The notes beneath the pieces were generated by a model. The model saw nothing but the letters and a program-made list of their open reading frames with translations. It was not told where the DNA came from and did not search any database. From the IMG/VR virus record IMGVR_UViG_3300032268_000444, positions 1-33,953 of that record: a stretch of DNA of 33,953 nucleotides. One strand, given 5' to 3'. The position numbers and the translations under genes are program-made. Positions 9,261 through 32,739 of this stretch are shown one piece after another; position 1 is the first letter of the stretch, and every line of letters starts with the position of its first letter. The DNA is from a virus.

Positions 9261-9266
9261 TCGCAA

Positions 9267-12632: not shown

Positions 12633-12634
12633 TT

Positions 12635-12907: not shown

Positions 12908-13390
12908 ATGCCAATAGTAGCAAGCAGAGGGGGAACATATACCCCCGCACCCGAAGGGAATCACGACGCAGTGTTCTGCGACGTTGAGGATCTCGGCGTA
13001 GTAGAAACGCAGTATGGAAAAAAGCATCAGATCCGCCTTGTCTGGCAGATCGCTGAGAAGATGGAGGACGGGCGGCCGTTCACCATCGGCCGGCGTTATG
13101 GACTGAGCCTGCATGAGAAAGCAGCTCTGTTCAAAGATCTGAAATCCTACGCCAAAAAGGCGCCACCGCAGAATCTGGATCTGGAAACGCTTATCGGTAA
13201 GCCGTGCCAGATCCTTGTCACACATGCGGAGCGTGATGGCTCAACCTACGCAAACGTGCAGGCGGTACTGCCTGCCGGAGCGAACAAAGTGAAAGTCGAC
13301 AAAGACTTCGTCAGGAAATGCAATCGCCCTGGCGCACCGAAACCAGCCGTCGTGGAACTAGATGCCGACGGAACACCCGTGCCGTTCTGA
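12908..13390 (+). CDS. OB-fold-like single-stranded DNA-binding protein, 160 aa
   Basis: Residues about 10-50 (APEGNHDAVFCDVEDLGVVE, then GKKHQIRLVWQIAE) and the middle KDLKSYAKKAPPQ match a phage replication-associated family (DUF669-like) proposed to bind single-stranded DNA. The C-terminus has a basic stretch, then an acidic tail (ELDADGTPVPF), as in SSB proteins. It sits just before the RecB-like exonuclease, suggesting a recombination/replication partner. The SSB role is inferred from family resemblance and tail shape. Confidence 0.6.
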   Translation: MPIVASRGGTYTPAPEGNHDAVFCDVEDLGVVETQYGKKHQIRLVWQIAEKMEDGRPFTIGRRYGLSLHEKAALFKDLKSYAKKAPPQNLDLETLIGKPCQILVTHAERDGSTYANVQAVLPAGANKVKVDKDFVRKCNRPGAPKPAVVELDADGTPVPF

Positions 13391-13395
13391 GCACT

Positions 13396-13426
13396 TGGCC
13401 GAGGTGGTTCTATCCCTCCTTGGCCA
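13396..13426 (+). terminator. Hairpin after the DNA-binding gene (possible terminator or attenuator)
   Basis: TGGCCGAGG (13396-13404) pairs with CCTTGGCCA (13418-13426), nine pairs including one G-U, around a 13-nt loop. No U-tract follows, so if it terminates it does so weakly. It may instead stabilise the upstream mRNA. Confidence 0.4.
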
Positions 13427-13440
13427 GAAAGAATACCAAT

Positions 13441-13536
13441 ATGGAAATCCTAACTTTAGTAGTTCAAATCGTATTCCCCACAACCGCAGTCGTGCTGGCC
13501 CTAATGACCATGCGGCTGATTAAGGATTGGCAGTAA
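13441..13536 (+). CDS. Very small membrane protein, 31 aa
   Basis: ATG 13441 gives a 31-aa peptide that is hydrophobic over residues 3-23 (ILTLVVQIVFPTTAVVLALM) with a basic end (RLIKDW). It ends in a TAATG overlap with the exonuclease gene. Its coding status rests on the overlap and the single membrane segment. The sequence GAAATCCTAA occurs right after its start codon. Confidence 0.45.
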   Translation: MEILTLVVQIVFPTTAVVLALMTMRLIKDWQ

Positions 13537-14303
13537 TGGCTGCGCTTATTGCCACGGCAAAGACGGAGTCGTCGCACTATTACCTGGCGTCGGGTGAGTC
13601 GTGCCACGGTGATCTGCGGTCTGCCCGCAAGGTGGGAGCTTATCCGTCCGTGACCACAATTCTCGGAGCGGCTGGCCCCAGCAAGCAGGGCTTAATGAAT
13701 TGGAAGGAGGAGCAGGCGATTCTATCCGCCTTGTCGCTACCACGGAACGATGGCGAGGCCGACAGTGATTTTGCCAAACGAGTTGTATTAGACAGCAGAA
13801 AGGAAGTGGAGGCCGCTGCTATTAGGGGCACTCAGATTCATTCCCTGGCTGAAATCATAATCAACGGCGAGGAACCCGGTGAGCTTGTGAAAGGATACGA
13901 GCCTCACTTTGCATCGCTTAAGGAATGGCATAAAGACGTCACAAAAGTACACGCCAGTGAATCGGTGATGGTGAATGAAGCCGAAGGATACGCGGGCCGG
14001 GTGGATCTTATCTGCGACATCAACGGCGAGATCGAGGTGGTGGATTTTAAGACCCGCAAATTTAAGAACGGCAAGGCGGCAGGCTATGAGACTGATCTGC
14101 TTCAGCTCAGCGCCTATGCGTACGCTTTCACGGACGAGCACATGGCCTGTCGCAACGTTCTGATCGATCCAGTGACGGGGCAGTTGGCCGAGGTCAAATA
14201 CACGGCAGAGCAGGTCTGCTTTGCGTTCGAGGCGTTCACGTCCATTTGCAAGGTGTGGCGTTGGCTGAAGAAGTACGACCCACGGGAGGTGCGTTGTGAT
14301 TGA
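13536..14303 (+). CDS. RecB/Cas4-like PD-(D/E)XK exonuclease, 255 aa
   Basis: The motifs of this nuclease family are in order: His102 in GTQIHSLAE, Asp in GRVDLIC (about 157), Asp-x-Lys in VVDFKTRK (about 170-172) and QLSAYAYA (about 189-196). The protein probably processes DNA ends for recombination or replication, together with the DNA-binding protein encoded upstream. ATG 13536 was chosen for the TAATG overlap and the AAGGA about 9 nt before it; a TTG nine bases upstream is an alternative. No iron-sulfur cysteine set typical of Cas4 is seen. Confidence 0.75.
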   Translation: MAALIATAKTESSHYYLASGESCHGDLRSARKVGAYPSVTTILGAAGPSKQGLMNWKEEQAILSALSLPRNDGEADSDFAKRVVLDSRKEVEAAAIRGTQIHSLAEIIINGEEPGELVKGYEPHFASLKEWHKDVTKVHASESVMVNEAEGYAGRVDLICDINGEIEVVDFKTRKFKNGKAAGYETDLLQLSAYAYAFTDEHMACRNVLIDPVTGQLAEVKYTAEQVCFAFEAFTSICKVWRWLKKYDPREVRCD

Positions 14304-14448
14304 AATCCTACCCGAACAATCCACCCAAGAGCAGTTACTGAACCGCGTGCGCTCATTGGCCCGTGAGCTGGCTGAAGCAAAGGCTGCGCTGGCGGCTGCC
14401 GAAGGACGAGAAAACGATCTGATCGATCGCATCAGGAGCGGGCTATGA
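14296..14448 (+). CDS. Small coiled-coil protein, 50 aa
   Basis: GTG 14296 is preceded by GGGAGGT and overlaps the exonuclease end by 8 nt; the stop overlaps the next ATG by 4 nt. The sequence is a long Ala/Glu/Leu/Arg helix (ARELAEAKAALAAAEGREND). It resembles small phage coiled-coil proteins of unknown role. Confidence 0.55.
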   Translation: MIEILPEQSTQEQLLNRVRSLARELAEAKAALAAAEGRENDLIDRIRSGL

Positions 14449-14861
14449 GGACGCTGCTTTCAATTCTCGCCCTGCTTGGCTTTACAACAACAAAGCTAAG
14501 TAACGCACTTATCGATCTGCGCCCGATCGCCAAGAAGATCGACGTGAAGAAAATCAAGGTTCGCATCACTGGCTACTGGCCGGGTGAGGATGAGTGGAGC
14601 AGCCGCTATCAATCGAGCACTGGCACCAAGTTGCGTGCTGGTCGTCACTGCGCCGTCGATCCAGACATCATTCCGCTGTGGTCAAAGATCCGCGTGATGG
14701 GCGGAAAGCGTGAGTGGGTGGCCGTGGATACTGGCACTGCCGTTAAGAGCAAGAAGGCAAGCGGTGGAAAGCTTCCCGTGGTGGACGTCTTTGCTGCCAG
14801 CGAAAAGCAGTTCAACGCGATGCGATTGCCGAAAGTGGCGATGGTAGAGGTGATGAAGTGA
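14445..14861 (+). CDS. Secreted 3D-domain protein (RlpA/MltA-like double-psi barrel), 138 aa
   Basis: An N-terminal hydrophobic signal (about residues 3-22) is followed by the 3D pattern: ITGYWPGEDE, AVDPDIIPLWSKI, VAVDTGTAVK and VVDVF with Asp residues at the usual positions. In related proteins this domain binds or cleaves glycan strands of peptidoglycan (MltA, RlpA, YocH types). It lies among replication genes and far from the lysis block, so it may act on the cell wall early, e.g. in exclusion or wall remodelling. The start is in an ATGA overlap. Catalytic activity is not certain. Confidence 0.7.
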   Translation: MRTLLSILALLGFTTTKLSNALIDLRPIAKKIDVKKIKVRITGYWPGEDEWSSRYQSSTGTKLRAGRHCAVDPDIIPLWSKIRVMGGKREWVAVDTGTAVKSKKASGGKLPVVDVFAASEKQFNAMRLPKVAMVEVMK

Positions 14862-15139
14862 GCACGAAGGCCGCCACGTTTGCGTCTAAGCGCAATCGGG
14901 CTGCGGGCCTTGGCGATACTCGGCCGACGTTCCGCCGCTTGGGCGTGATCGCTGGCATGCTACGCCGGGATCTAACGCTGCCTAGCTGTGCCAGGTTGGG
15001 CGTTAAGCTCGAATGTAGCTACAAGACCATCCAGCGGGACATCGATCTGCTGCGTGACTTCTTTGGCTATCCCCTGCAATACGACGCCAGCAAGTACCAA
15101 TACAAATTGGCGGGGCCACTGCCGAAGGCCGTGCTGTGA
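14858..15139 (+). CDS. HTH protein resembling the N-terminus of WYL/DeoR regulators, 93 aa
   Basis: From about residue 28 the pattern RLGVIAGMLRR, SYKTIQRDIDLLRDFFGYPLQYD and YQYKL matches the HTH_11 plus wing of WYL-domain regulators. The ligand-binding WYL domain is absent, so it is a minimal DNA-binding version. It is translated from GTG in a 4-nt overlap. A role as early regulator is inferred. Confidence 0.65.
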   Translation: MSTKAATFASKRNRAAGLGDTRPTFRRLGVIAGMLRRDLTLPSCARLGVKLECSYKTIQRDIDLLRDFFGYPLQYDASKYQYKLAGPLPKAVL

Positions 15140-15348
15140 AATTTAGCAAACACATTTGGGCTGAGTTAAAGGTTGAGTCAGAAAAGTTAAGGCGTTACCC
15201 CGGCCATGCTCTGAATTGCTACATCCACATTGATTCTGAGGTGTGTAACTGCGGAACAGAAGAAGTGCAAGAAGAGCTGGCAAACGAAGAAACCAAAGCC
15301 GAGACGCGAGAAGATGATTCTTATGAAGGAAAAATCTATGACATTTGA
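15136..15348 (+). CDS. Hypothetical acidic protein, 70 aa
   Basis: GTG start in a GTGA overlap. Cys28 and the CNC motif (about 37-39) could bind metal, and the C-terminal half is very acidic (EEVQEELANEETKAETREDD). No known family. Confidence 0.5.
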   Translation: MKFSKHIWAELKVESEKLRRYPGHALNCYIHIDSEVCNCGTEEVQEELANEETKAETREDDSYEGKIYDI

Positions 15349-15466
15349 GCAGATCCTTATCATGTTTTCCGCCCGAGTCATCGGAACCTACACGCCGGAG
15401 CAGTACGCCGACTGTGTGCGAGAGGCCCGTGCCAATCGCCACAGGTGGGGAATGGGGCAGTGGTGA
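15338..15466 (+). CDS. Small hypothetical protein, 42 aa
   Basis: ATG 15338 has AAGGA at 15325-15329 in front and overlaps the previous gene by 11 nt. The protein contains TYTPEQYADCVREARANRHRWG, which reads as two short helices. Its stop overlaps GTG 15463 of the next gene (GTGA). Function unknown. Confidence 0.45.
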   Translation: MTFEQILIMFSARVIGTYTPEQYADCVREARANRHRWGMGQW

Positions 15467-16035
15467 AATTATCTGATAGGATAAATAACAGATCTCAAGC
15501 CTGGCTGGATGAGGCTAGAGACAAGAAAGAAAAGAACATAGCAGAACAAGAGCTGTTTATGGCTGAAGAAACGAAGGCAATCGAACAACGCAAAAAACGT
15601 ACATCTAAATTTCGCAAAGAAAACAAACCCTTTGATTGCATTCACAACAAACACATGGGCTCGTTAGCTGTTCAAAAGCTTATCACAGAAGTAATGCAAA
15701 GAGGGGCGAGCTGTTCGGTTCCGATTGGTGACGAGCAAGCCTATGACGTTATTGTAGATCCAAAAAACGGATTATTAAGAGTTCAGGTAAAAAGCACATG
15801 GTCTTGTGTTTACAAAAAAAACGGAGATAGGTGCGCCAACAGGTGCAGAGTTATTATTGCTAAAGGTGCTGGATGTAAAACGCCATACGGCACTGACGAT
15901 GTAGATGTTGTAGCTATTTATGTTCAGCCTTTTGATCACTGGGAGCTTTTATATAGCGATCAAGTAACCGGTGTTTCTTTTAGCTTTAATTCTAACCAAC
16001 TAAATCCGACCAACTGGGGAATTCTTGGCCTATGA
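15463..16035 (+). CDS. PD-(D/E)XK endonuclease-like protein (PDDEXK_5 type), 190 aa
   Basis: After a lysine-rich helical N-terminus (about residues 1-55) comes MGSLAVQKLITEVMQRGASC, VPIGDEQAYDVIVD with Asp95, and RVQVKS with Gln108-x-Lys110: the helix, D and QxK pattern of this nuclease group, which includes the homing enzyme I-Ssp6803I and resolvase-like proteins. The gene is clearly more AT-rich than its neighbours, pointing to recent transfer. It could be a free-standing homing endonuclease or a junction resolvase. GTG 15463 fits the overlap pattern; GTG 15445 is the alternative. Confidence 0.65.
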   Translation: MKLSDRINNRSQAWLDEARDKKEKNIAEQELFMAEETKAIEQRKKRTSKFRKENKPFDCIHNKHMGSLAVQKLITEVMQRGASCSVPIGDEQAYDVIVDPKNGLLRVQVKSTWSCVYKKNGDRCANRCRVIIAKGAGCKTPYGTDDVDVVAIYVQPFDHWELLYSDQVTGVSFSFNSNQLNPTNWGILGL

Positions 16036-16208
16036 GCGTTAAGCGTTTAACCTGGCATCTCGCCGTACTCGAACGTGCGAAGAAGAATTTGCTCAAAAAG
16101 CAGTACGATGCAGTACGCGCCCGGCTGGATCTGGCAGTTCTTATGGCTACGGAAATGCTGAAGCAGGCCGAGGACTATAAGGCCAAGGCGATGGAGGCCA
16201 AAAAATGA
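16032..16208 (+). CDS. Small helical protein, 58 aa
   Basis: ATGA overlaps at both ends support coding. It is Lys/Ala/Leu-rich and predicted to be one or two long helices (LERAKKNLLKKQYDAVRARL). Unknown function. Confidence 0.5.
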   Translation: MSVKRLTWHLAVLERAKKNLLKKQYDAVRARLDLAVLMATEMLKQAEDYKAKAMEAKK

Positions 16209-16384
16209 AACTTCTTTCAATCTTATTCTATTACTTAGGAGACATGGTCAGCCACACGATTGCCCGGTGGAGCTGGGGCGGGTGGCTGTATCAAAGGCTG
16301 ATGTTGTTGTCCGTGGACTGCGACAAGGACTTTGAAATTTGGAAGGAAGTGAAGCCACGCAAAAAGAGGAGAAAACGCAAATGA
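16205..16384 (+). CDS. Small basic protein with hydrophobic N-terminus, 59 aa
   Basis: It overlaps both neighbours by 4 nt. The N-terminus (LLSILFYYLGDMV) is hydrophobic, the middle Trp-rich (RWSWGGWLYQRL) and the end strongly basic (KPRKKRRKRK), which suggests membrane or nucleic-acid contact. No family recognised. Confidence 0.5.
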   Translation: MKLLSILFYYLGDMVSHTIARWSWGGWLYQRLMLLSVDCDKDFEIWKEVKPRKKRRKRK

Positions 16385-16572
16385 AGGATCTAGGCAAAAT
16401 TACTTTTGGCAAAGCACGCCCTGCGCCGAAGCAGGTTCTAGTCGACGTAACCTATGACGCCAAGACGGCAAAGGCGTTGCACGCATTTGGACTGAAGCAG
16501 TTAAAGAAAGATCAAGAGGCAGTGATCGAGTACGTGATCGTTAAGGCGCTAGGGGCGTTTGCTAAAAAATGA
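16381..16572 (+). CDS. Hypothetical small protein, 63 aa
   Basis: ATG 16381 is preceded by GAGGAG within 13 nt and overlaps the previous stop. The sequence has a beta-hairpin-like start and two helices (AKTAKALHAFGLKQL; VIEYVIVKALGAF), reminiscent of small ribbon-helix-helix proteins. Ends in an ATGA overlap with the primase-helicase. Confidence 0.5.
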   Translation: MKDLGKITFGKARPAPKQVLVDVTYDAKTAKALHAFGLKQLKKDQEAVIEYVIVKALGAFAKK

Positions 16573-18530
16573 TCGCACCCCTACCGCCCGCAATCGAAGC
16601 CATCCATCGCAACGGGGCCGCTGAAGGCGAACGCAACACGCAACTTTTTAAGCTGGCGTGCCAGTGGCGTGATCAGGGCCTGACCGAGTTCGACGCAACA
16701 ACCAACGCAGAGGAGTGGGCCTATAAGGTGGGGCTGTCGCAGAACGAGGCAGTATCGGCCGTAAAATCCGCATTTAGCAAGCCAGCGAGGGAGGCGTGGA
16801 AACCAAAAGCCAAGTATGGTTATCAAAATGGAGCGATCGTGCGTGAGGATCTGCCAGTACCGCCTATGCCGATCAGCGTGGAGAGTGGGCCGGTCGATAA
16901 GTTCCTGACTACGTGTTTCGACGTGGGTGATTACATTAACATCTGCCGATCGATTAAAGACAAGGACGGCCGGGAGCGGCCGGATGGTGCAGGCGAGACG
17001 CGAAGCCGTGAGGAATGGCTAGAGCTGTTTAAGGGCGACGGATTGAAGGAGTGGCAAGGCGACGCAGTGGGCGTGTATGTATCGATCAACGCTAACAACG
17101 GAAAGAATCGGAAAGCGGAGTCGATCGTGAAGTACCGCCACTGCCTAATCGAGTTTGATGAAAGCACGATGCAGGAGCAATGGGCGATTATTAAACGCAG
17201 CGGGTTGCCTACGTCGTCGATCATAAAGAGCGGGGCACGCAGCCTGCACGCATGGGTGGAGATTCGGGCAGCCAATGCCAAGGAGTTCGCTGAACGTGTG
17301 GATTTTATCTACAAGCACCTAGAGCACAGCAAGCCCGATCCGGCGAACAAGGACGCAGGCCGGTTGTCGCGGTTGCCCGGTGCGATGAGGACGGCCACAG
17401 GATTACAGCAAGAGTTAGTCGAGTGTGGCGCACCGACTTTGACCTACATGGAGTGGATGGAGCGCACGATTTACGGTGATATTCCTGAGCCGTATAGCTG
17501 GGAGCAGTTGGTTAATTTTAAGGAGGATGCCGACATAACGCAACTGCTGGGAAAGCGGTGGATATGCCGTGGCGGTTCAGCGTTGTGGGTGGGAAGCAGT
17601 GGCCTTGGAAAGAGCGTGCTGTGCTTACAGGCCGCAATCACCTGGGCGGCCGGGCGTGATCTGTTTGGCATTAGCCCACACGGCAAGCCGTTGAAGTCCT
17701 TAATCGTTCAAGCAGAGAACGACGAAGGAGACGTGGCGGAAGCGTTGCAGGGCATATTGAGGGCACTGGATTTGACCGCAGAGGAGCTGGATCGGGTGAA
17801 GCAGAACATTGTGATTGTGCGTGACTGCACGTCCACGGGTGAGCGCTTCGTCGATAGGATGCGTCGCCTAGCTGAAAAGCATAAACCGGATTTAGCCTGG
17901 GTAGATCCTTTGCTGGCGTTTATCGGTGGCGACTTATCCAGCCAGGAGACTGCCGGTGGCTTTTTGCGTAATTTGCTTAACCCACTCGCCCTATCTGGCG
18001 GATTTGCTTGGATGCTTATGCACCATACCCCGAAGCCAACACGGGATGGCAGTGGTTACCAAGGGCACGACAAGGCGTATAGCGGATTTGGATCGAGCGA
18101 GCTGACGAATTGGGCAAGAGCCGTTTTAATGCTGTCTCCTTGTGGCCAGGATGAGCAAGGAACGTATACATATAAGCTTGAGGTGACCAAGCGCGGGAAG
18201 CGGTCTGGCTTGCGTCCTAGCGTCACTGCGAGCGATTTTATAGCCAGCAAGACGCAGCCGTTAGTTCACTTAAAGCATGCCGACAGAGGGATGGCGTGGA
18301 TTGAAGTGGGAGCGCCTGAAAAGTCGGTAGGCAGAAAGGCTATGTCGATCGATTGGGGCAAGTTACCAGAAGGGGCTAAATACAGCCAAGTGGTCGCATT
18401 TGTACAGCAGGCCACCGGGTTGCAGGAACGGCAAGCGAAGGCCCGTGTGAAGCAGGCAAAAGAGGACGGTTTAATCGAAGAAACTGAGGCTGGTTTATTC
18501 AGCAAAAAGGTGACAAATGAGCCCTTTTGA
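16569..18530 (+). CDS. Primase-helicase (RepA-like ATPase with AEP-type primase-like N-terminus), 653 aa
   Basis: Residues about 110-280 carry a primase-like pattern: LIEFDES (193-199), SGARSLHAW (about 220) and DAGRLSRLPGAMR (about 262-274). Residues about 315-560 are a RecA-type ATPase with Walker A GSSGLGKS (342-349), Walker B near LAWVDPL (about 442-448) and a HHTPKP segment as in RepA/AAA_25 helicases. The last 60 residues look like a winged helix. It would prime and unwind DNA at the phage origin; the iteron-like repeats directly downstream fit. Single-polypeptide fusion is well known in phages and plasmids. Confidence 0.75.
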   Translation: MIAPLPPAIEAIHRNGAAEGERNTQLFKLACQWRDQGLTEFDATTNAEEWAYKVGLSQNEAVSAVKSAFSKPAREAWKPKAKYGYQNGAIVREDLPVPPMPISVESGPVDKFLTTCFDVGDYINICRSIKDKDGRERPDGAGETRSREEWLELFKGDGLKEWQGDAVGVYVSINANNGKNRKAESIVKYRHCLIEFDESTMQEQWAIIKRSGLPTSSIIKSGARSLHAWVEIRAANAKEFAERVDFIYKHLEHSKPDPANKDAGRLSRLPGAMRTATGLQQELVECGAPTLTYMEWMERTIYGDIPEPYSWEQLVNFKEDADITQLLGKRWICRGGSALWVGSSGLGKSVLCLQAAITWAAGRDLFGISPHGKPLKSLIVQAENDEGDVAEALQGILRALDLTAEELDRVKQNIVIVRDCTSTGERFVDRMRRLAEKHKPDLAWVDPLLAFIGGDLSSQETAGGFLRNLLNPLALSGGFAWMLMHHTPKPTRDGSGYQGHDKAYSGFGSSELTNWARAVLMLSPCGQDEQGTYTYKLEVTKRGKRSGLRPSVTASDFIASKTQPLVHLKHADRGMAWIEVGAPEKSVGRKAMSIDWGKLPEGAKYSQVVAFVQQATGLQERQAKARVKQAKEDGLIEETEAGLFSKKVTNEPF

Positions 18531-22259: not shown

Positions 22260-24722
22260 ATGGCACAGAAACTTTCACTCGTGGCTCGGATGGGCGCAGG
22301 CATTAAAGCGTTTGGAGCTGGATTCGGTGCAGGCATCAGCACGTTCCAACCTTACGAAGGCGCAGGCTTTTCCCGTAAGCGCCCCGTCATCTATGGCGCC
22401 CATGCCCGCGATTCACGACTAGATCTAAACGAAGCGACACGAGTTGAGCTGCTAAAGCTCGCCCGGCACATGTACCGTAACGTCGGGCTGATTAAAGGGG
22501 CGGTGGATTCGATCGCCACCTATTCGATTGGCCCAGGACTCCGGCCGCAGTATCGCGGTGCAAATCAAGATTTTGGCAGATTGTGTGAGGAATACTGGCG
22601 CGATGTGGTAGTGCCATCGCCTGAAGTTACTGGGCGCATGACTTGGACAGACATACTGCTTGCACTATCGCGATCGATCGACGTGGATGGTGATGTATTC
22701 GTCATCATGACGGAAAAGGGTAAGCTGCAAATTGTCGAAGGTCATCGCGTTTGCGAGGGCGATGACTACGGAACTTCTGACGGAGTGTTCCTCGGCAAGC
22801 TTGGCGAGCCTACTGGATATTTAGTTCAGACTGGCGAGCTGTATCGCAAGCTGGGCGCAGATACCGTCATTCATTTAATGGAGCTCGAACGGCCCGATCA
22901 GATTCGCGGAGGATCCTCACTCGCTCGCGCATTGAATCACGTCCGCGATCTCAAAATGCTGGGCGAGTTTGAGAAGGATGCTTTGAAATTGCAGGGATCG
23001 ATTGCCGCAGTCATCACCACCGACCAAGGCGACGAGCTGGCAGGACAGGGTGGATTCTTTGGAACCGTGCAGGCTCAAGATACTGGCGAACCAACAATCG
23101 CCCGCGAGGAGATCACCAGCTCGGCAACCATCCCACGCCTTTCACCTGGCGAAAAGATTGAGATGATCGGGCCGAATAGACCGCACGCTGGCTTTGAGCC
23201 TTTCGCCAAGTTTCTGATTCGTGACGTGGCCATGGGCCTCGGCTTGCCGGTTGAATTTGTTTACGACCCAGCCAGCGTCGGCGGTGCAGGGATGCGGTTT
23301 ATTGTGGCAAAGGCACAGCGCAGATTTGAACAACGGCAACGCCTGCTTATCGACAGATTCTGCAACCGCGCATGGCGATACTTCATCGGCGGCGCGATTG
23401 CCAACGGCGACCTACCGGCCGTGGAGGACTACGCAAAAGTTACGTGGCAGACTCCGAAGTCGCTGACCGTGGACGCAGGGCGCGAGGCGATGCAGGCACG
23501 CGAGGACTACAAAGCAGGCCTATCCAGCTTGCAGGATTACTTTGGCGAACTTGGCCAAGATTGGGAAGAGCAAGTCAGGCAGATCGCAAAAGAGCGTGAG
23601 TTTGTCGCATCAATTGGAACAGTCGCACCCCAGACCGACGTGGCGGCCCCGGTGGAAGTAGTCAAAGAAGCACCCGCAATCGACGAACCCACGCCAGTTA
23701 ATCCTGAGAAAGATCCGAACGCTGGGCCAGATGCGGAACTAAGCGCAAAGGTTGAGCTAGATTTGCCAACACAAAACGCAGGCGAGACTGATGATAAGTT
23801 TATGGATCGCTGCATGGGTAATCCCACAATGGTGTCCGAGTTTCCAGAAAACGATCAAAGGGCAGCCGTGTGTGCCAGGCAGATGAAACTATCCGCCAAG
23901 CCACAGACAGAATCTTTCACCATGCGGGACGACCCAGACTACAAGCTCAGCGACAAAGAACTAGACATGATCGCGAGCGCAATCGGGCTTAAAAAAAAAG
24001 AGAAAACAGAATTAGCTAAACCTACGGCCGGCATGATTGCCGAAGCCAAGAAGGGGCTAGAGTGGCGTCGGGAATACAAACGCGGCGGGACTGAAGTGGG
24101 CGTGGCTAGGGCACGCGATATAATCAATAACGTAGACTTTCCAGACGAGACCATCGCCCGCATCAGCTCATACCTAGCTAGGCATGAAGTGGATAAAAAA
24201 GGCGAAGGGTTTAACCCTGGCGAACCGGGATTCCCATCGGCAGGCCGGATAGCTTGGGCGCTTTGGGGTGGCGATCCTGCCCAGAGCTGGGCAGCGGTAC
24301 AGATGCGCCGGATCGCCCGCGAGATGGCGGCACGGCCGGGGCCGAAGTCAGCCAGCCAAACACCCGCGCCAGCAAGTGAACGTAAGAAGGGCAGTGATAC
24401 GAACCCAGCCGGCACAGCCTCCACTAGGTCAAAGGCAGGGGATATTGAGATCAGCGAAGCCGTTGAAGAAACTTTAAAAAACAAAATAGCGGATTTTAAA
24501 AAGCGCCATCCTAATCGCAAAGCGCCCACCCTAGGGGCGCTCAAGAAAGTTTTTCGCAGGGGTGCTGGCGCTTTCTCAACCAGCTTCAGGCCAACGATCG
24601 GCGGGGGAAGGCCCAACAGCCGGACAGCCTGGGCGATTGCTAGGGTAAACAAATTCTTAAAGATGGCAGGCGGTGGCGAGGTAAAGAAAAGCTACCGCGA
24701 AGCTGACGGCGATCTGCTTTAA
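22260..24722 (+). CDS. Portal protein (lambda type) with long C-terminal extension, 820 aa
   Basis: Residues about 30-455 follow the lambda portal pattern (RHMYRNVGLIKGAVDSIATY, SRSIDVDGDVFV, DQIRGGSSLARA, GLPVEFVYDPASVGGAGMRFI and QRLLIDRFCNRAW). This forms the vertex ring through which DNA enters. The core ends near 455, and another 365 residues follow with three modules: AGETDDKFMDRCMG (507-544), AKKGLEWRREYKRGGTEVG to GRIAWALWGGDPAQSW (about 588-690), and KKVFRRGAGAFS to SRTAWAIARVNKFL (about 746-820). Such modules usually occur on other phage head proteins. No frameshift is needed. Confidence 0.88.
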   Translation: MAQKLSLVARMGAGIKAFGAGFGAGISTFQPYEGAGFSRKRPVIYGAHARDSRLDLNEATRVELLKLARHMYRNVGLIKGAVDSIATYSIGPGLRPQYRGANQDFGRLCEEYWRDVVVPSPEVTGRMTWTDILLALSRSIDVDGDVFVIMTEKGKLQIVEGHRVCEGDDYGTSDGVFLGKLGEPTGYLVQTGELYRKLGADTVIHLMELERPDQIRGGSSLARALNHVRDLKMLGEFEKDALKLQGSIAAVITTDQGDELAGQGGFFGTVQAQDTGEPTIAREEITSSATIPRLSPGEKIEMIGPNRPHAGFEPFAKFLIRDVAMGLGLPVEFVYDPASVGGAGMRFIVAKAQRRFEQRQRLLIDRFCNRAWRYFIGGAIANGDLPAVEDYAKVTWQTPKSLTVDAGREAMQAREDYKAGLSSLQDYFGELGQDWEEQVRQIAKEREFVASIGTVAPQTDVAAPVEVVKEAPAIDEPTPVNPEKDPNAGPDAELSAKVELDLPTQNAGETDDKFMDRCMGNPTMVSEFPENDQRAAVCARQMKLSAKPQTESFTMRDDPDYKLSDKELDMIASAIGLKKKEKTELAKPTAGMIAEAKKGLEWRREYKRGGTEVGVARARDIINNVDFPDETIARISSYLARHEVDKKGEGFNPGEPGFPSAGRIAWALWGGDPAQSWAAVQMRRIAREMAARPGPKSASQTPAPASERKKGSDTNPAGTASTRSKAGDIEISEAVEETLKNKIADFKKRHPNRKAPTLGALKKVFRRGAGAFSTSFRPTIGGGRPNSRTAWAIARVNKFLKMAGGGEVKKSYREADGDLL

Positions 24723-25670: not shown

Positions 25671-26561
25671 ATGGCCAACACAATCGGAACAACGAATGCG
25701 AACGTAATCGCACAGAGGGCGCTCGAGATCCTCGTGGCGGATTATTCGTTCCTTCGGAATTCAGTTTCAGATTTTTCTTCTGAAGCTGCTAAATACAACG
25801 CCTCGATCTTCACCCACCGCATCTCTGCGACGACTGCCCAGGACTATTCCCAGGCTAACGGTTACGTAGCGACTGCGACAACCCAGACGGACGTGCAGAT
25901 CACTCTCAACAAGTTCAAGCACGTTACCTACTCTGTGGACGATCAAGAGCGCACCAGCTCCAACATCAACCTCATCGAGCGTTTCGCCGGCGCAGCCGCG
26001 CACGCCCTCGGGTTGCAGATGGTTGGGGATCTGTTGGCTCTCGTGACTTCCTCCACCTTCACCAATGCGTTGACGGTTGCTTCCAGCGCCTTCTCCTACC
26101 GTTCGGTAGTGTCGGCCGGAATCACCCTCAACAGCAGCAACGTACCAGTCAACGGCCGGTACGCTGTTCTTAACCCTAGCTTCTACGGCGCACTCTTGAA
26201 TGATACGACCGTCGTGGCCAATCCTCAGATCACTGGCGACCTCGTTCGCACGGCTGGGATCGGAAACGTGGCTGGATTCAACATCTCGGCCTACAGCGCA
26301 ATCCCAAGCAACAGCATCACGCTCGGCGGTTTCTTCGCCCAGCAGGAAGCCTTGTTGATCGCGGCCCGCGTTCCTGAAGTTCCGACCGGTGTTCCCATCC
26401 CAGGGGACATCTCGATTGTGACGGAACCCCGCACAGGACTTTCCGTCCAAGTGCGCGAGGCGTATTCCGTCCAAACGGGACAGCTCAGCAGAACCTACGC
26501 GCTTATTTACGGCGTGAAAGCCGGAGAACCCGCGAGCTTGGTTCGTATCAACGGTAGCTAA
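25671..26561 (+). CDS. Major capsid protein, 296 aa
   Basis: Strong AGGAG ribosome binding site at 25657-25661 and a position after portal and protease. The protein has the composition of an HK97-fold shell protein: alternating beta strands, an E-loop-like region near residues 50-90, and a segment PVNGRYAVLNPSFYGAL like the coat-protein pattern of P22-related phages. The mature N-terminus may be trimmed by the protease. A hairpin terminator follows it, as often seen after abundant structural genes. Confidence 0.85.
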   Translation: MANTIGTTNANVIAQRALEILVADYSFLRNSVSDFSSEAAKYNASIFTHRISATTAQDYSQANGYVATATTQTDVQITLNKFKHVTYSVDDQERTSSNINLIERFAGAAAHALGLQMVGDLLALVTSSTFTNALTVASSAFSYRSVVSAGITLNSSNVPVNGRYAVLNPSFYGALLNDTTVVANPQITGDLVRTAGIGNVAGFNISAYSAIPSNSITLGGFFAQQEALLIAARVPEVPTGVPIPGDISIVTEPRTGLSVQVREAYSVQTGQLSRTYALIYGVKAGEPASLVRINGS

Positions 26562-26624: not shown

Positions 26625-26924
26625 ATGTCTGAATTTACAGAGTGCCTAAAGGAAAGTCTGGCCGCTCTATACGATCAAACCGGCACGGCCGCCACTATCG
26701 GTTCCACTAGCGTTACTGGCATTCTCTCGACAATCACCCGCAAAGAAAGCGTGGAGCTGGGCGGGTTTGATCTGGATCTTAACTCCACCTTTACCATCGA
26801 CGTGGCTAACTTGGCAACGGCTCCCACGATTGGATCGATTCTGCTGGCCAACTCCGTCAGCTATCGGGTGGCGTCGATTGATACTTCTATCGGTAGTTAC
26901 GTGCTTGGGTTGCGAGAGGTTTAA
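26625..26924 (+). CDS. Head-tail connector (gpFII-like), 99 aa
   Basis: A short beta-rich protein downstream of the capsid gene, in the position and size of the lambda FII-type joiner. The pattern ALYDQTGTAATIGSTSVTG to YVLGLREV reads as a small beta barrel. A conserved GAAATCCTAA lies directly before its ATG. The island of enzymes begins right after it. Confidence 0.6.
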   Translation: MSEFTECLKESLAALYDQTGTAATIGSTSVTGILSTITRKESVELGGFDLDLNSTFTIDVANLATAPTIGSILLANSVSYRVASIDTSIGSYVLGLREV

Positions 26925-26926: not shown

Positions 26927-28612
26927 GTGGCCACTCGAAATCCTAAAATCTCCATCTACGCTATCGCCGGGCACGAGGCGCAATTCATGGAGCGCTTTGT
27001 AACGGCATTTTTACCATATTGCGATGAGCTGGTAATTTGCATGGCTCAAGGCGCAAAGCCTGACGACGGCACGCGGGCGATCGCTGAAAAGTCAGGGGCT
27101 AAGATAGTTGAATATAAAAATGCACCCGCAGGGGCGAGCTGGCCGCACGTCGATAACTTTGCCGCCGCCCGCAACACCGCGCTAGATGCCTGCACTGGCG
27201 ACTATGCGGTCTGGGTCGATTGCGATGACTTGCCACATAAAGACCTCAAAAACGCTTTTAAAAGGGGCGTAGAAGCGTTTGAGCAGAATCCCAAGCTCGG
27301 CATCTACGCGGGCGTCTATGACGTTATAAACGCCAAATTAAGGCCAGTACGTGAGCGCATGGTGCGGCGTATAGACGGCGTATGGTCTGGGAGGTGGAAC
27401 TACGCCGTCCATGAGGCGCTGTTGCCCAATGCTGGGCTAGAATCTGTGGGTGAGCAGGCGGTATGGGTAGAGCATCACCCAGGCGGATATAAGCCAAACA
27501 GCGCCGATCGTAATCTCCGCATCCTTCAAGGCCAGTTAAGCGAGGCGGGCAAGTATGCGTACTACTACCAGCAGGAACTTTTCCTAGGAAATAGGCGGGT
27601 TGAATCGGAACCATGGTCACACGTTGCGGCCGTCTGGCCGGGGCAGGAGGCAACGCTGGCTTACGAAGCCGCCTGCAATCAGGCCACGGCTACGCAGGAT
27701 CGCACCGTCAGGATCGGCCTATATCAAAAGGCCCATCAGATGAATCCTGGGCGAAGGGAAGCGATTTACTTTTTAGCCAGGGAAGAGGCCAGCGTGGGTG
27801 CGTGGTTACAGGCTTATCACTTGCTGAAATCGGCCATGGTACAGCCCGATCCGGGCGTAAAGATCTGGAACGCCCAGCGCACCATTTACGACTTTGAGTG
27901 CATTGATCTGTACCTAGCGGCCTGCAAAGCCGTGGGCGATACGGGTGAGGCAGAAAAGATTGAAAAGATGTGGCGGGCACAGAAGCCGGTGAAGATTAGC
28001 GTCTGCCACGCCACGCGAGGCCGCCCCCAAGAGGCCATTAACGCCCGTATCTTGTGGATGAAAAAGGCGGCAGATCCAGCGTCAGTTGAGTGGATTTACT
28101 CAGTCGACGATGACGATCCTAAAGCCGACATGCTGAAAAATTGGGGAATCGTAAAGGGTAAGGGCGGGTGTATTGCCGCATGGAACAGAGCGGCCGAGGT
28201 GGCCCGTGGTGAAATTATCATTCAAGGCTCCGACGATTGGGATCCTCCACTGCACTGGGATAAGATAATCAGCGACAGGATTGGCGATACCAGCAAGCCC
28301 AAGGTGCTGGCTATATCCGACGGCCATCGCAAAGACGATCTGCTGTGTATGGCAATCCTCACCAAAGCACGTCTGCAAGATCAGGGCGCAATGTTTGCCG
28401 CTGAATATGACGCATGCTCAGGAATTTTCAGCGATAACGAATTTTCCAAGAGAGCTGCATACGACGGCGTGATCATTCCTGCTAAGGACATCGTATTCAC
28501 TCACAATAATCCGCTATTCACGGGCGCAGCGCAGGATGCGGAATTTAAACGCCACAACGCCAAGGAGAACTACGAGCTGGGCGAAAAGATATTTAAGGAG
28601 CGGAACCCGTGA
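26927..28612 (+). CDS. Double-domain GT2 glycosyltransferase, 561 aa
   Basis: Residues about 5-200 form a GT-A domain with an acidic motif VWVDCDD (Asp98, Asp100, Asp101). Residues about 250-345 look TPR-like (IGLYQKAHQMNPGRREAIYFL). Residues about 350-545 form a second GT-A-like domain with YSVDDDDP (about 394) and QGSDDWDP (about 435). A soluble enzyme transferring sugar, possibly to host surface or phage structure, is likely. The start is GTG 26927, 3 nt after the connector gene. It ends in a GTGA overlap with the next gene, so it is expressed with the tail genes. Confidence 0.75.
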   Translation: MATRNPKISIYAIAGHEAQFMERFVTAFLPYCDELVICMAQGAKPDDGTRAIAEKSGAKIVEYKNAPAGASWPHVDNFAAARNTALDACTGDYAVWVDCDDLPHKDLKNAFKRGVEAFEQNPKLGIYAGVYDVINAKLRPVRERMVRRIDGVWSGRWNYAVHEALLPNAGLESVGEQAVWVEHHPGGYKPNSADRNLRILQGQLSEAGKYAYYYQQELFLGNRRVESEPWSHVAAVWPGQEATLAYEAACNQATATQDRTVRIGLYQKAHQMNPGRREAIYFLAREEASVGAWLQAYHLLKSAMVQPDPGVKIWNAQRTIYDFECIDLYLAACKAVGDTGEAEKIEKMWRAQKPVKISVCHATRGRPQEAINARILWMKKAADPASVEWIYSVDDDDPKADMLKNWGIVKGKGGCIAAWNRAAEVARGEIIIQGSDDWDPPLHWDKIISDRIGDTSKPKVLAISDGHRKDDLLCMAILTKARLQDQGAMFAAEYDACSGIFSDNEFSKRAAYDGVIIPAKDIVFTHNNPLFTGAAQDAEFKRHNAKENYELGEKIFKERNP

Positions 28613-29373
28613 TTCACACGCACAACGCACTGCGTTTGGGCGACAATTTGGTGCAGTTAAACTTTCTACGTCGGCTATGCCTGCAAAATCCAGATCTTGA
28701 GATCACGCACTATTATAACCCTGGGCTGTGTAGGTTTGAGGAAATTGATGCATTGCGAAGCGACATGTCTTTACGCCTACACATTAGGCCCATCGATCAA
28801 GCGCCGGCCAATAGCATTGATTCTTGGCGTAATGCAGGCGGATATTGGGAGAGTCACCCAGATAAATTAAACTTTGCCAAATTTCATCTATGTTGGTTTG
28901 AGGAACTGGCCAGCAGGATGTGCGTAAAGAATCCGATCGGGAAAGTCGATGACCTCCTGTTTGACTATCCGGCCTTAGATTCTTTCATTCCGATGGCGCC
29001 AGATTGCGACATTGTCGTGATAAATTCGCCAGGGTTGTCTGGTCAATTTACAAACTTTAACCCCGACGATTTTCGCAACCTAGTATCTAAGCTAGTTAGC
29101 AAGGGTCATCGTGTAATTAGCACAGTCGCTACTGGATTATGCCCGGCATTTGATGGCAAGAATGTGACCTGGATAGGGGCAACGGCTGCCAAGGCAAAAG
29201 CTGTTATCGGAACATCCACCGGTCCGAGCTGGCCGTGCCTTAACGTTCATAACAAAAATGCCTTTCACCTGCTTTGTGGAGATACCGAAAACGTGATTCT
29301 TACTGAGCGCGGGCAGATGGCGAGAAGCGCATATCATGCAATTCATATACTAGAAAATGAGGGAATATTGTGA
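28609..29373 (+). CDS. GT-B-like glycosyltransferase (GT9/heptosyltransferase-like), 254 aa
   Basis: The N-terminus (ALRLGDNLVQLNFLRRLCLQ) matches the GDNL loop of GT9 enzymes. The C-terminal half has DIVVINSPGLSGQ, then AVIGTSTGPSWPCLNVHNK, like the sugar-nucleotide site with a GPSH/GPSW turn near the end. It is shorter than typical heptosyltransferases (about 320-350 aa), so a minimal version or a nucleotide-sugar-binding relative is possible. GTG start with AAGGAG before it and 4-nt overlaps on both sides. Confidence 0.6.
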   Translation: MIHTHNALRLGDNLVQLNFLRRLCLQNPDLEITHYYNPGLCRFEEIDALRSDMSLRLHIRPIDQAPANSIDSWRNAGGYWESHPDKLNFAKFHLCWFEELASRMCVKNPIGKVDDLLFDYPALDSFIPMAPDCDIVVINSPGLSGQFTNFNPDDFRNLVSKLVSKGHRVISTVATGLCPAFDGKNVTWIGATAAKAKAVIGTSTGPSWPCLNVHNKNAFHLLCGDTENVILTERGQMARSAYHAIHILENEGIL

Positions 29374-30011
29374 ACCTTACAAATCGCAAAAAACTAATTT
29401 ATCGAACAATAGAAATCGATTACAAGCAGCAGCATCGCCACGCCTCTGGATCCCTTTCAGCACTTCCAATTATGCTGGAAATATTTGAGCAAATGAGGCA
29501 TGGCTCGGATATTTTTATTTTGTCAAAGGGTCATGCCGCTCCATCTTATTACGCAATCTTAGAAGAACTGGGATACAAGCCAGATATATCGCATCCGCAT
29601 CCATATAGAAACCTAAAAGAAGGAATACCAGCGACAACAGGGTCACTCGGTCACGGACTTCCTATTGCGGTTGGGTGGGCGCTTGCAAACAAAATCTCTG
29701 GGAAAAATGATCGCGTCTTTGTTTTGCTGGGTGATGGCGAAACTCTGGAAGGAACAACCTGGGAATCACTAAATCTCGCAAAATCACTTCAACTTGAAGA
29801 GCATCTATTTGTTCACATTGATTCTAACGGCTGGCAAGGATCTTGCCGCACAATATGCAATACAGACGACATTATCCCTCATATCTATCCAGTTAAAATA
29901 CATAAGACAAAACGAGGCGCAGGGGTACGGATACTTGAGGAAAATGAAAGTTGGCACACTCACACAATTACCGACGATGAATTTCAGGCCATGATTGAGG
30001 ATCTAAAATGA
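29370..30011 (+). CDS. Transketolase-like, N-terminal (thiamine-diphosphate) subunit, 213 aa
   Basis: It has the TPP-domain features: ILSKGHAAPSYYAI, TTGSLGHGLPIAVGWALA, GDGE (about 121-124) and an Asn in DSNGWQGS about 30 residues later, the GDG-N thiamine diphosphate motif. It forms half of a split transketolase together with the next gene, presumably as a heterodimer pair. The substrate of this type is usually a sugar phosphate. The gene is more AT-rich than phage core genes. Start GTG, in a 4-nt overlap. Confidence 0.85.
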   Translation: MNLTNRKKLIYRTIEIDYKQQHRHASGSLSALPIMLEIFEQMRHGSDIFILSKGHAAPSYYAILEELGYKPDISHPHPYRNLKEGIPATTGSLGHGLPIAVGWALANKISGKNDRVFVLLGDGETLEGTTWESLNLAKSLQLEEHLFVHIDSNGWQGSCRTICNTDDIIPHIYPVKIHKTKRGAGVRILEENESWHTHTITDDEFQAMIEDLK

Positions 30012-30463
30012 GGTGGCCTTTTGCCCAGGCCGTGACTGCTCTGGCCGAAAGCGATGAGCGCATAGTATTGCTGATAGGCGATGTTGGAGGAGGATTGTTT
30101 TCAACCTTTGCCAACAAGTTTCCAAAACGATATTTTAATCTTGGTACTGCAGAACAATCATTAGTCGGAATTGCATCAGGCATGGCGCTGGCAGGTCTAA
30201 GACCGATTGTTTATTCATTTACGCCATTTATTTTAGAACGAGCATACGAGCAAATTAAACTAGATGTCTCGTTGCAGCGTGCTCCTGTCCTGCTTGCAGG
30301 CTGGCAGGACGAAGTCCACGGTCTTACGCATCAGTCGCACAATGCACAACGTATTGTCGCAACTATTGATGGGTTAAGAGGCATTTATCCTCAAAACGCC
30401 GAGGAAATCCCATTGGCGATTGCCAAACCCGATGAATGGCCTGCATTTATTCTGCTAAAATAA
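30008..30463 (+). CDS. Transketolase-like, pyrimidine-binding subunit, 151 aa
   Basis: The pattern FNLGTAEQSLVGIASGMALAG, then PIVYSFTPFILERAYEQIK, then VHGLTHQSHN is the Pyr domain, with the glutamate of GTAEQS that activates thiamine. The normal third (C-terminal) transketolase domain is missing, so the two subunits total only about 364 aa against about 600 or more for complete enzymes. Overlaps its partner by 4 nt (ATGA), consistent with equal synthesis. Confidence 0.85.
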   Translation: MRWPFAQAVTALAESDERIVLLIGDVGGGLFSTFANKFPKRYFNLGTAEQSLVGIASGMALAGLRPIVYSFTPFILERAYEQIKLDVSLQRAPVLLAGWQDEVHGLTHQSHNAQRIVATIDGLRGIYPQNAEEIPLAIAKPDEWPAFILLK

Positions 30464-30475
30464 GAAAGAAAAAAA

Positions 30476-31168
30476 ATGAATAATCTAACACCAGATGAAC
30501 AAAACGTAGTCTTTGGTTTAACTAATATGCATGACGGACGGCAACAAACACTGAATCGATTGCGATGGGAAGTTATGCAAAATACAGGTTTACAAATAGC
30601 TGGCAAAACAATCTTTGAACCAGGGGCCGGGATAGGAGATCAGACGGAATGGTTGTTAGCTCAAGGCGCTAGCCGCGTAATAGTGAACGATGGCCGAGAA
30701 GCTAATCTAAGTGTTATTAGAAAGCGTTTTATCTCAGATAATCGGGTAAGTACAATTCTTGGGAACATCGAAAACTGCTTAGGATTACAAGAATTCCTAA
30801 ATATTAAAGCCGATATGGTTTTTTTATGGGGCGTATATTATCATGCCAACGATTCTTTGAGCGAGTTTGGAATTCTTAAAAGCCTAGCACGCATCGCTCC
30901 AATAGTTGTATTTGATTACTTGGAAAGCGCAACTGGTCAGGACTGGATCGAATCATACGATTACGATCACCCAACCACTTCTATTTCAAGAAAATCACCG
31001 CGGCCTACTTATGACACGATGATGTCGGGAATTAGAAAAACATTTGGAAACGCATACGTGCCGGTAAAGCAATTTGATTGGTTCGATTTCTGCGCCCCAC
31101 AAACGCCAAGAAAAATAGCAGTTGGATCAAAACATCCGTTAAATCTGCCAGGGCTTATCAGCGCATAA
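30476..31168 (+). CDS. SAM-dependent methyltransferase (class I fold), 230 aa
   Basis: TIFEPGAGIGDQT (about residues 46-58) is the SAM-binding motif I, with RVIVNDGREANL as the post-motif acidic loop and DMVFLWGVYYH as motif IV-like. It could methylate a sugar, a lipid or another small product made by the neighbouring enzymes. The gene is AT-rich. The longer open frame of the next gene overlaps its end, but the ATG at 31171 lies after its stop. Confidence 0.75.
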   Translation: MNNLTPDEQNVVFGLTNMHDGRQQTLNRLRWEVMQNTGLQIAGKTIFEPGAGIGDQTEWLLAQGASRVIVNDGREANLSVIRKRFISDNRVSTILGNIENCLGLQEFLNIKADMVFLWGVYYHANDSLSEFGILKSLARIAPIVVFDYLESATGQDWIESYDYDHPTTSISRKSPRPTYDTMMSGIRKTFGNAYVPVKQFDWFDFCAPQTPRKIAVGSKHPLNLPGLISA

Positions 31169-31170
31169 TA

Positions 31171-32262
31171 ATGAAACAAAATAAATACAGCGATTACAAA
31201 ATCTTTTCATTTCAAGAAAAGATTGCCAGCTTTCGCGACGATATTATTACCGCTCCCATCTACGTGCGGATCAAGCCGACAAATATCTGCAATCACGCCT
31301 GCCGTTTTTGCGTTTATTCAGATGGCACAACTCGGCCCAAGGATCGGCCTGATTTGCACCTACAGGCTGGCATGCACACCAGCATGAACGAGCGGGACGT
31401 GATGCCACGAGATAAGGCACTAGAACTAATAGAGGATCTTTCAAACATGGGAACAAAAGCCGTCACCTTCAGCGGTGGCGGAGAGCCTTTGCTGCATAAA
31501 GACATTGTCGAGATTATGACTAAGACAGTTTCGTCTGGGCTGGATCTATCCATTATTACCAACGGCCAACTGCTTGCGGGAGAAAGGGCTGAAGTATTGG
31601 GCAAGGCAAAGTGGGTTAGGATTTCGATGGACTACACAAGCGCAGAACAGATGGCGTCCAGCCGTAACGTGCCGGACAGATCGTTCGATTCGGTGATGCA
31701 AAACATAAAAAACTTTTCAAATACCAAAACGGAAAGCTGTGATCTTGGAATTAACTTTATTATTACCCGCTATAATTACGAGGGCTTAGTTCCATTTGCC
31801 AAGCAGCTTAAAGATTCAGGCGTCAGTAACGTTCGCTTCTCGCCTGTCTACGTTCAGAACTTTAAGGACTATCACAACACGATTGCAACTAGGGTGCGAG
31901 AGCAACTAGCCGAATGCCAATCCTTTTGTGATTCAGATTTTACCATTAACACGACCTACGATCTGGATAGTCCAAGTAAGTCGCCCGTTCGGCCATTCCA
32001 TCGCTGTCTCTACGCTCAGGCCGTTTGCGTGGTAGGTGCGGATCTCAATATCTACGCATGCCACAACACTGCGTATAGCGATCACGGCCGAATTGGGTCG
32101 ATTAAAGAGCAATCGTTTAAGCAGGCTTGGTTTAGTGACGAAGTGCGTAAATGGCATAAAACATTTAACCCTGGCGTCAGTTGCCTGCACGAATGCGCCA
32201 ATCACGCCAAGGTCGCACTGTATGAAAAGCTGGCCACCGATAGTCACGACGCCTTTGTGTAA
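31171..32262 (+). CDS. Radical SAM enzyme with SPASM-like C-terminus, 363 aa
   Basis: The CxxxCxxC iron-sulfur motif is Cys40, Cys44, Cys47 (ICNHACRFC). FSGGGEPLLHKD (about 101-112) is the SAM-binding GGE motif. Further Cys in RCLYAQAVC (about 279-286), IYACHN (about 295) and SCLHEC (about 340) fit auxiliary clusters. Such enzymes catalyse radical reactions on peptides, sugars or nucleosides. ATG 31171 was chosen as the motif sits 40 residues in; the frame opens upstream at 31078 inside the methyltransferase. Substrate unknown. Confidence 0.8.
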   Translation: MKQNKYSDYKIFSFQEKIASFRDDIITAPIYVRIKPTNICNHACRFCVYSDGTTRPKDRPDLHLQAGMHTSMNERDVMPRDKALELIEDLSNMGTKAVTFSGGGEPLLHKDIVEIMTKTVSSGLDLSIITNGQLLAGERAEVLGKAKWVRISMDYTSAEQMASSRNVPDRSFDSVMQNIKNFSNTKTESCDLGINFIITRYNYEGLVPFAKQLKDSGVSNVRFSPVYVQNFKDYHNTIATRVREQLAECQSFCDSDFTINTTYDLDSPSKSPVRPFHRCLYAQAVCVVGADLNIYACHNTAYSDHGRIGSIKEQSFKQAWFSDEVRKWHKTFNPGVSCLHECANHAKVALYEKLATDSHDAFV

Positions 32263-32292
32263 CATCTGCTCTGGTGACAAGAATCTAGTTAT

Positions 32293-32739
32293 ATGCCCGC
32301 CGTCACCATGCTCGATCGTCTAATTGAAGCTGCGTTTCAAGAGCTTCTAACTACAACCGTTACCGGGGTGACCTACCACTTGTCGCACGATAAGACGGAA
32401 AATATGCCGCCATCGATCGTCATTAAGGCCACGCTAGGAACGGAAGAGCCGGTGCAAGGATCTGGCGTGTTTAGCGTGCCGGTTGAAATTGTGGTGGACG
32501 ATTCATATGACGACACAACTGTGGACGCCCATACTCAAAAATGCTCCAAAGTACTACAGGCTTTTTATGATTCCAGCCCGCTCGCAACGCGATTAAACGC
32601 TACCACCGCCATCGGATCTGCCCGCTGTTATAATGCGAAGCTGGAATCAGTTGAGCCAGAGGCCGACGATGAGGAGCGCACCATGCGTCGCACCTACCGG
32701 CTGGCAGTGATTGCCATGCCCAATTCCATCGCGAGTTGA
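32293..32739 (+). CDS. Tail terminator/completion protein (gpU-like), 148 aa
   Basis: First tail-module gene after the enzyme island. The alternating beta pattern with helix, MLDRLIEAAFQELL, then VPVEIVVDDSYDDTTV and RRTYRLAVIAMP, fits tail-terminator proteins that cap the tube and contact the head. No motif is definite, so the call relies on position and size. Start may also be ATG 32308. Confidence 0.6.
   Translation: MPAVTMLDRLIEAAFQELLTTTVTGVTYHLSHDKTENMPPSIVIKATLGTEEPVQGSGVFSVPVEIVVDDSYDDTTVDAHTQKCSKVLQAFYDSSPLATRLNATTAIGSARCYNAKLESVEPEADDEERTMRRTYRLAVIAMPNSIAS

Follow-up and report, generated by a model that had tools for sequence, protein, structure and literature searches.

A polymorphic phage cassette pairing a radical SAM enzyme with minimal thiamine-dependent enzymes, putatively for a virus-encoded sugar

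The gtrABC serotype-conversion cassettes are swappable sets of phage glycan-modifying genes that include a membrane flippase and a membrane glycosyltransferase (GT). In mycobacteriophages, glycans are described on capsid and tail tube subunits of the virion itself (Freeman et al. 2023, as summarized in PMC12619734). In antibiotic gene clusters, two superfamilies of two-subunit, thiamine diphosphate (ThDP)-dependent enzymes stand beside sugar-tailoring genes, namely the split-gene transketolases (TKs) of miharamycin and amipurimycin and the E1-type alphaKADH2 pairs of aldgamycin, avilamycin and kibdelomycin; the latter put acetyl branches on keto-sugars, which are subsequently reduced, methylated, oxidised or transaminated (PMC12247030). 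Finally, a recombination region of Campylobacter fetus (CFF8240_1582-1612) encodes radical S-adenosylmethionine (SAM) proteins, two TK subunits, a methyltransferase (MT) and two GTs (PMC5013579). Here we describe a locus with elements of each of these systems, a cassette of six enzyme genes at positions 26927-32262 of an uncultured phage represented by the complete IMG/VR record IMGVR_UViG_3300032268_000444 (33,953 bp, hereafter the window, to which all coordinates refer unless another record is named).

Relative to the mycobacteriophage case, the window phage encodes a dedicated sugar-building module, known here from its genes. The cassette is swappable, as gtrABC is, but carries neither a membrane flippase nor a membrane GT and lies in the structural region. 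Its two-subunit ThDP enzyme belongs to one of the superfamilies of the antibiotic clusters, but the viral enzymes consist of the PP (cofactor diphosphate-binding) and Pyr domains only, have a radical SAM enzyme (rSAM) as partner and are phage-borne, with an activity that is predicted. We propose that the locus is a glycan cassette, polymorphic and subject to recombination, in which the rSAM would make a keto-sugar, the ThDP pair would add a two-carbon (C2) branch, the MT would cap the product and the GTs would transfer it, probably to the virion; as a whole, we consider this proposal evenly poised between right and wrong. The module and its sugar role are well supported, and we infer the keto-sugar step, the C2 branch and the acceptor. 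More broadly, we tentatively suggest that viruses from ~33-kb phages to a 735-kb megaphage may encode a branched-sugar pathway made of a virus-associated rSAM clade and minimal two-domain ThDP carboligases of TK or E1 type, and that in the present group of phages it may form a recombining 'serotype' locus that alters which sugars coat the particle.

All six open reading frames (ORFs) lie on the + strand and are as tightly packed as the first-pass annotation of this DNA had described, with three 4-nt overlaps and gaps of 2-12 nt. The first encodes a double GT2 enzyme of 561 aa (26927-28612; PF00535, E = 1e-10), in which PHROG 13126 at residues 6-343 and PHROG 14945 at residues 356-556 mark two separate GT domains, as had been anticipated. 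The 254-aa product of the second gene (28609-29373) gave no Pfam, NCBIfam or PHROG family match, while its confident AlphaFold model (pLDDT 90.7) matched the GT9 heptosyltransferases WaaC and TibC in Foldseek (E = 2e-6, probability 1.0, TMq 0.53-0.63), in agreement with the earlier suggestion of a GT-B-like enzyme. Because the fold matches while the family models do not, we describe this protein, on the strength of its model, as having a GT9-like (ADP-heptosyltransferase-like) fold and keep it out of GT9 proper.

The two genes that follow encode the PP subunit (213 aa, 29370-30011; PF00456, Transketolase_N, 4e-12) and the Pyr subunit (151 aa, 30008-30463; PF02779, Transket_pyr, 2e-22) of a ThDP enzyme. 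The nearest solved structure to the former is 6yak, the split TK of Carboxydothermus (1e-19), and the protein keeps GDG at 121, the N of DSN some 30 residues further on and the TK His motif SKGH at 52; the latter matches 6yaj and DXS and keeps the catalytic Glu in AEQ at 48 as well as LTHQ at 106. The split, thiamine-dependent TK proposed beforehand is thus recovered in its domains, its ThDP/Mg motif and its catalytic Glu, and a loss of active sites, which had been named as a point that could undo the idea, was not borne out, the motifs of PP, Pyr and rSAM being intact. No match to Transketolase_C was obtained in the 151-aa protein, and because this third (C-terminal) domain appears to be absent, we label the pair 'TK-type' rather than a standard TK. 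Viral Pyr subunits of TK type and E1 type alike are only ~151-192 aa long where they are clearly bounded (e.g. window 30008-30463 and L016:7489-8007); viral ThDP enzymes of either type lack the third domain.

The last gene of the cassette encodes the rSAM, a protein of 363 aa (31171-32262; PF04055, 2e-19; SPASM, PF13186, 1e-4) whose start, judged from homologue N-termini, is the ATG at 31171 and not the upstream TTG at 31078. The motif CxxxCxxC (C40/C44/C47) and GGGEP at 102 were invariant in 12 divergent sequences, as were the C-terminal cysteines C279-x17-C297 and C338-x3-C342, so the radical SAM/SPASM-like enzyme recognized at first pass holds; its four cysteine ligands, as read from the alignment, fit one auxiliary cluster (twitch) and not a full SPASM set. 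Since there is one auxiliary cluster motif, and since enzymes acting on sugars or cyclitols (DesII, BtrN and cytosylglucuronate decarboxylase) are among its solved matches, the rSAM is a good candidate for the maker of the ketone that the ligase would require.

Between the Pyr and rSAM genes lies a probable SAM-dependent MT (30476-31168). The motif EPGAGIGD and matches to PF13649 (E = 2e-4) and to the CmoB model (3e-4) speak for the MT named at first pass, but the PF13649 match falls under the curated cut-off and the fold prediction reached a pLDDT of only 37, the alignment being too shallow. Relatives of this protein were confined to 4 phages among those typed below, and no strong relative was present in a collection of isolated phages. 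Homology to the 220-aa MT that occupies the same gene position in bacterial clusters was considered and dropped, as the two gave no BLAST match.

The rSAM and the ThDP enzyme are also found together in other viruses. Relatives of the rSAM, as little as ~40% identical, come from widely differing viruses, including a 735-kb megaphage and contigs of 100-120 kb and 470 kb; the only strong relative in the collection of isolated phages is that of megaphage LR756501/LR756503. When the viral rSAM sequences were clustered at 65% identity, all eight resulting clusters had PP and Pyr genes within 5 kb, the few exceptions being records that end near the gene, and the pair thus spans viruses from 33 kb to 735 kb. 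By comparison, 12 of 15 other rSAM loci had no ThDP gene nearby. Gene order varies among the viruses (Pyr-rSAM-PP, PP-Pyr-rSAM and rSAM-PP-Pyr). Because the pairing is conserved across many phages and, as detailed below, bacterial sugar clusters, the gene content indicates that it is a conserved partnership and not random cargo; the biosynthetic route ending in glycosylation that had been suggested is in line with this recurrence. A described function for radical SAM and thiamine enzymes in phage glycosylation was not found in the literature consulted, which covered few subscription journals.

The company of the module differs between these viruses. The TK-type subunits of L208 are 43-47% identical to those of the window over the aligned parts and are directly followed by a short-chain dehydrogenase (SDR), so that the tailoring genes seen beside TK-type viral pairs are an SDR in L208 and the MT in the window. 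In L213 a gene of the GDP-mannose-4,6-dehydratase family lies between Pyr and rSAM, and the L201 lineage has an Anp1/GT2-like enzyme in place of the GT9-like one. Glycan genes of megaphage LR756501 comprise C-methyltransferases and an NAD epimerase by Pfam, several GT-like genes by inspection, and an FkbM-like gene. Three side observations may be added here. In L136 (LR756501.1, the 735-kb megaphage, 331-18413), ~18 kb of glycan-related genes surround a GT-Pyr-rSAM-PP module in a public record that carries no annotation. In two virus contigs of 100-120 kb, PP and Pyr are fused (L056:10588-11793, 401 aa; L196:6968-8299, 443 aa from an upstream start), giving a minimal single-chain ThDP enzyme of E1 type. 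Upstream of the TK-type rSAM module of L208 there is also, judged by eye, a QueE-like (7-carboxy-7-deazaguanine synthase) ORF (L208:861-1697).

The module has a bacterial counterpart. A pattern scan, in which only relatives of 22-30% identity were present among the matches listed, had raised the possibility of a virus-only rSAM clade; this was ruled out by whole-genome profile searches, which found bacterial orthologues as strong rSAM matches in 30 of 399, 5 of 297 and 1 of 40 genomes of three phyla. A split TK lay in the cluster with the rSAM orthologue in 15 of 20 fetched bacterial regions, and L250 has the window's order TKN-TKC-MT-rSAM. Recurring neighbours by Pfam were a Methyltransf_11 protein, an APH-type kinase, a PfkB/cytidylyltransferase fusion, an epimerase/dehydratase, an RmlD-type reductase, a DegT aminotransferase and a B12-binding radical SAM protein, and on plasmid pDCAR1 of Solidesulfovibrio carbinolicus the genes for pseB/pseC, an APH kinase, a TK C-domain, an MT and the orthologous radical SAM protein are consecutive. 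These surface-sugar clusters differ from the viral cassette in that their Pyr-type (TK C) subunits are mostly 306-320 aa long and possess the C domain, in their MT, which is not homologous at the level of BLAST, and in often having kinase, nucleotidylyltransferase and epimerase genes of their own. The Campylobacter fetus region resembles the window by listed gene content, which is the basis of that comparison. In a tree of the rSAM, viral and bacterial sequences formed large separate groups, with long branches that make the deep joins unsafe. Three of the bacterial clusters (L243, L244 and L246) have a second, E1 alpha/beta ThDP pair on the opposite strand beside a PfkB/cytidylyltransferase-like gene.

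Among closer relatives, the locus proved to be highly polymorphic. Relatives were gathered by scanning for the TK, radical SAM, head and double-GT proteins; 62 distinct records whose head gene is complete and whose cassette could be typed make up the typed set. In each of these 62, the locus opens, after the head genes, with the double GT2 gene, and one of five alternative cassettes comes next. Type A, to which the window belongs (4 of 62), reads GT9-like - PP - Pyr - MT - rSAM. Type B, the commonest (39 of 62), reads GT9-like - Pyr - rSAM - PP and has a ThDP pair of E1 type. The other three (10, 5 and 4 of 62) lack rSAM and ThDP genes and encode MTs and/or a DUF5672 protein together with a small protein, C5; in examples at the same site (L090, L099 and L072) we noted Methyltransf_11/23/24 proteins, a DUF5672 protein and C5, the last without family match, and a homology of C5 to the GT9-like protein was unsupported by hhalign. 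An empty site was not found among the best 80 head-protein relatives, all at least ~81% identical, and as every typed relative carries the double GT and a cassette at this place, the first-pass view of genes interrupting a continuous head-to-tail order had to be given up. On the head-protein tree the five cassette labels require 19 changes against a minimum of 4, and we conclude on this phylogenetic ground that cassettes move between phages.

How type A arose can be read from its junctions. The PP, Pyr and MT genes of the window share 98.3-99.8% DNA identity with those of phages from which it differs far more in the head gene (78-88% identity), whereas the GT9-like and rSAM genes are 86-90% identical to those of type B phages. 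The G+C content at third codon positions (GC3) follows the same division, with 0.36 for PP, 0.38 for Pyr and 0.35 for MT versus 0.48-0.61 for the other three cassette genes and 0.50-0.69 for the flanking genes measured, which confirms the AT-rich stretch seen earlier at ~29.4-31.2 kb. Directly after the rSAM gene, the 30-nt spacer CATCTGCTCTGGTGACAAGAATCTAGTTAT that separates it from the next gene of the structural region (32263-32292) is identical in all four type A phages. It contains CTCTGGTGACAAGA, which matches the type B PP gene at its end (ATC TGG TGA CAAGA); in type B phages this gene is located at the same place, with ATCTGGTGACAAGA as its final codons. The spacer is apparently a scar, holding the remnant of the 3' end of an E1-PP gene. 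Because this spacer with its apparent remnant is common to the four phages, type A was apparently derived once from type B and then spread by recombination; in the simplest reading of the sequences, a type B ancestor lost E1-PP, TK-PP, TK-Pyr and MT replaced E1-Pyr, and the GT9-like and rSAM genes stayed. The exchange of the pairs while the rSAM stayed implies that the TK and E1 pairs serve the same pathway step. Between type A and type B (L016) the rSAM is 88.8% identical in DNA and 96% in protein, and the excess of protein identity suggests purifying selection. A one-off recent insertion of all six genes is ruled out by the constant presence of the double GT and by the GT9-like and rSAM genes common to most relatives. 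The idea of recently gained cargo therefore survives for PP, Pyr and MT but not for the double GT, GT9-like and rSAM genes, which are older parts of the locus; likewise, the suspicion of individually variable genes that never co-occur is true of the MT and refuted for the double GT2, GT9-like, rSAM and ThDP set.

Based on these findings, we envisage the following sequence of events. Every type has the double GT2 core and another transferase-like gene, and the variable part would determine the sugar made. In type A, the rSAM/twitch enzyme would act on a host-derived sugar, most simply by oxidation to a keto-sugar, to which the TK-type pair would attach a two-carbon (hydroxyacetyl) branch; the MT would then cap the branched product, and its transfer to the acceptor, probably the virion, would fall to the GT9-like and GT2 enzymes. 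In type B, with an E1-type pair in the same slot, an acetyl branch would be expected. C2 branching is proposed because the interchangeable viral ThDP pairs belong to the same two classes as enzymes known or proposed to branch keto-sugars. As acceptor, a virion protein is most likely, because the six proteins look soluble (no membrane segment above the hydrophobicity threshold in any of them), the cassette has no flippase or polymerase and its genes stand among head and tail genes.

Several considerations weigh against this pathway. The assignments of substrate, product and acceptor follow from gene content and enzyme class, the MT assignment is weak, and carboligation by viral ThDP enzymes that lack the third domain is a predicted activity; even for the split-gene TKs of antibiotic clusters, the addition of hydroxyacetyl branches has been proposed without in vitro proof so far (PMC12247030). 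The TK and E1 families could equally build or extend a ketose rather than branch a sugar, and a heptose-like product would suit the kinase and PfkB-cytidylyltransferase neighbours in bacteria as well as the GT9 fold. The main rival is accordingly ordinary ketose or heptose building, in which the ThDP pair would build or lengthen a ketose- or heptose-type sugar phosphate, the rSAM would epimerise or dehydrate it and the GT9-like enzyme would transfer an ADP-heptose-like donor, with no C2 branch. The retained His motifs SKGH and LTHQ and the HldE-like character of the PfkB/cytidylyltransferase genes add to its appeal, but we regard it as unlikely, if serious, given that most of the phages use in the same slot an E1-type pair, and E1 enzymes decarboxylate 2-oxoacids and do not make heptuloses, that isomerase and nucleotidylyltransferase genes are absent from the phage cassette, and that the L201 lineage does without the GT9-like enzyme. 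An auxiliary metabolic role in raising the pentose-phosphate flux of the host, like that of talC in cyanophages, is hardly credible: it draws on TK homology only, and the enzyme here is a minimal two-domain one, linked to GTs and an rSAM, whose place in relatives is taken by an E1-type pair.

The destination of the sugar invites further alternatives to virion glycosylation. The module is not beside capsid genes in L200/L201, where it lies near replication-type genes, or in the megaphage, and virion targeting is consequently not implied everywhere. The glycan might instead be placed on the host surface, on a lipopolysaccharide or capsule precursor, to block superinfection or re-adsorption, as the occurrence of the bacterial homologues in clusters of surface-polysaccharide type and the Campylobacter fetus gene set would also allow; we think this doubtful but still worth considering, since the cassette has no membrane protein or flippase, unlike the gtr sets, and its late structural position favours particle-bound use. 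The rSAM, for its part, also resembles MoaA and peptide-modifying enzymes, with peptide maturases among its best NCBIfam similarities, and might modify a side chain of a virion protein on which the GTs then act, the ThDP pair being separate. This is improbable given that the rSAM clade is partnered by ThDP enzymes in phages and, for the most part, also in bacteria, where sugar-nucleotide genes surround it. DNA, which the first-pass annotation had listed among possible acceptors, is a very improbable one. Its glycosylation would protect the phage genome from restriction, and glucosylation of phage DNA by phage GTs is reported (PMC12619734), but a Pfam scan of 20 further ORFs recognized neither a pyrimidine hydroxymethylase gene nor any other for base modification, many ORFs having no assignment, and the late-gene position also argues against it.

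If the proposed pathway is correct, phages build unusual sugars of their own beyond borrowing them, and close relatives exchange sugar-building cassettes much as bacteria exchange O-antigens. It would then become possible to test directly how phage surfaces are glycosylated and what selects for it. The two kinds of very small ThDP enzyme, fused in one lineage, would be candidate catalysts of C-C bond formation, and the radical SAM/split-TK set found in many bacterial surface-sugar clusters would gain a testable function.

The cassette sits among the late structural genes, and because of this placement it is probably expressed with them. On its left are a P22-like major head protein gene (25671-26561, + strand; PHROG 283, 5e-29; PF11651, 6e-7) and a small gene of 99 aa (26625-26924, + strand), and on its right, beyond the spacer, are two small genes, the first of 148 aa (32293-32739, + strand). 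The 99-aa and 148-aa genes gave no family match; both keep their positions, the 99-aa gene beside the head protein gene, and the names putative connector and putative tail terminator are guesses from position. Of the 423 positions of the P22 coat model, the 296-aa head protein matches only 1-209, roughly the N-terminal half, making it a compact P22-like coat. Further upstream, the C-terminal part of an 820-aa portal ORF (22260-24722) matches PHROG 2859, and in many relatives (e.g. L035 and L039) the portal match is much shorter or split, so that this region is variable too.

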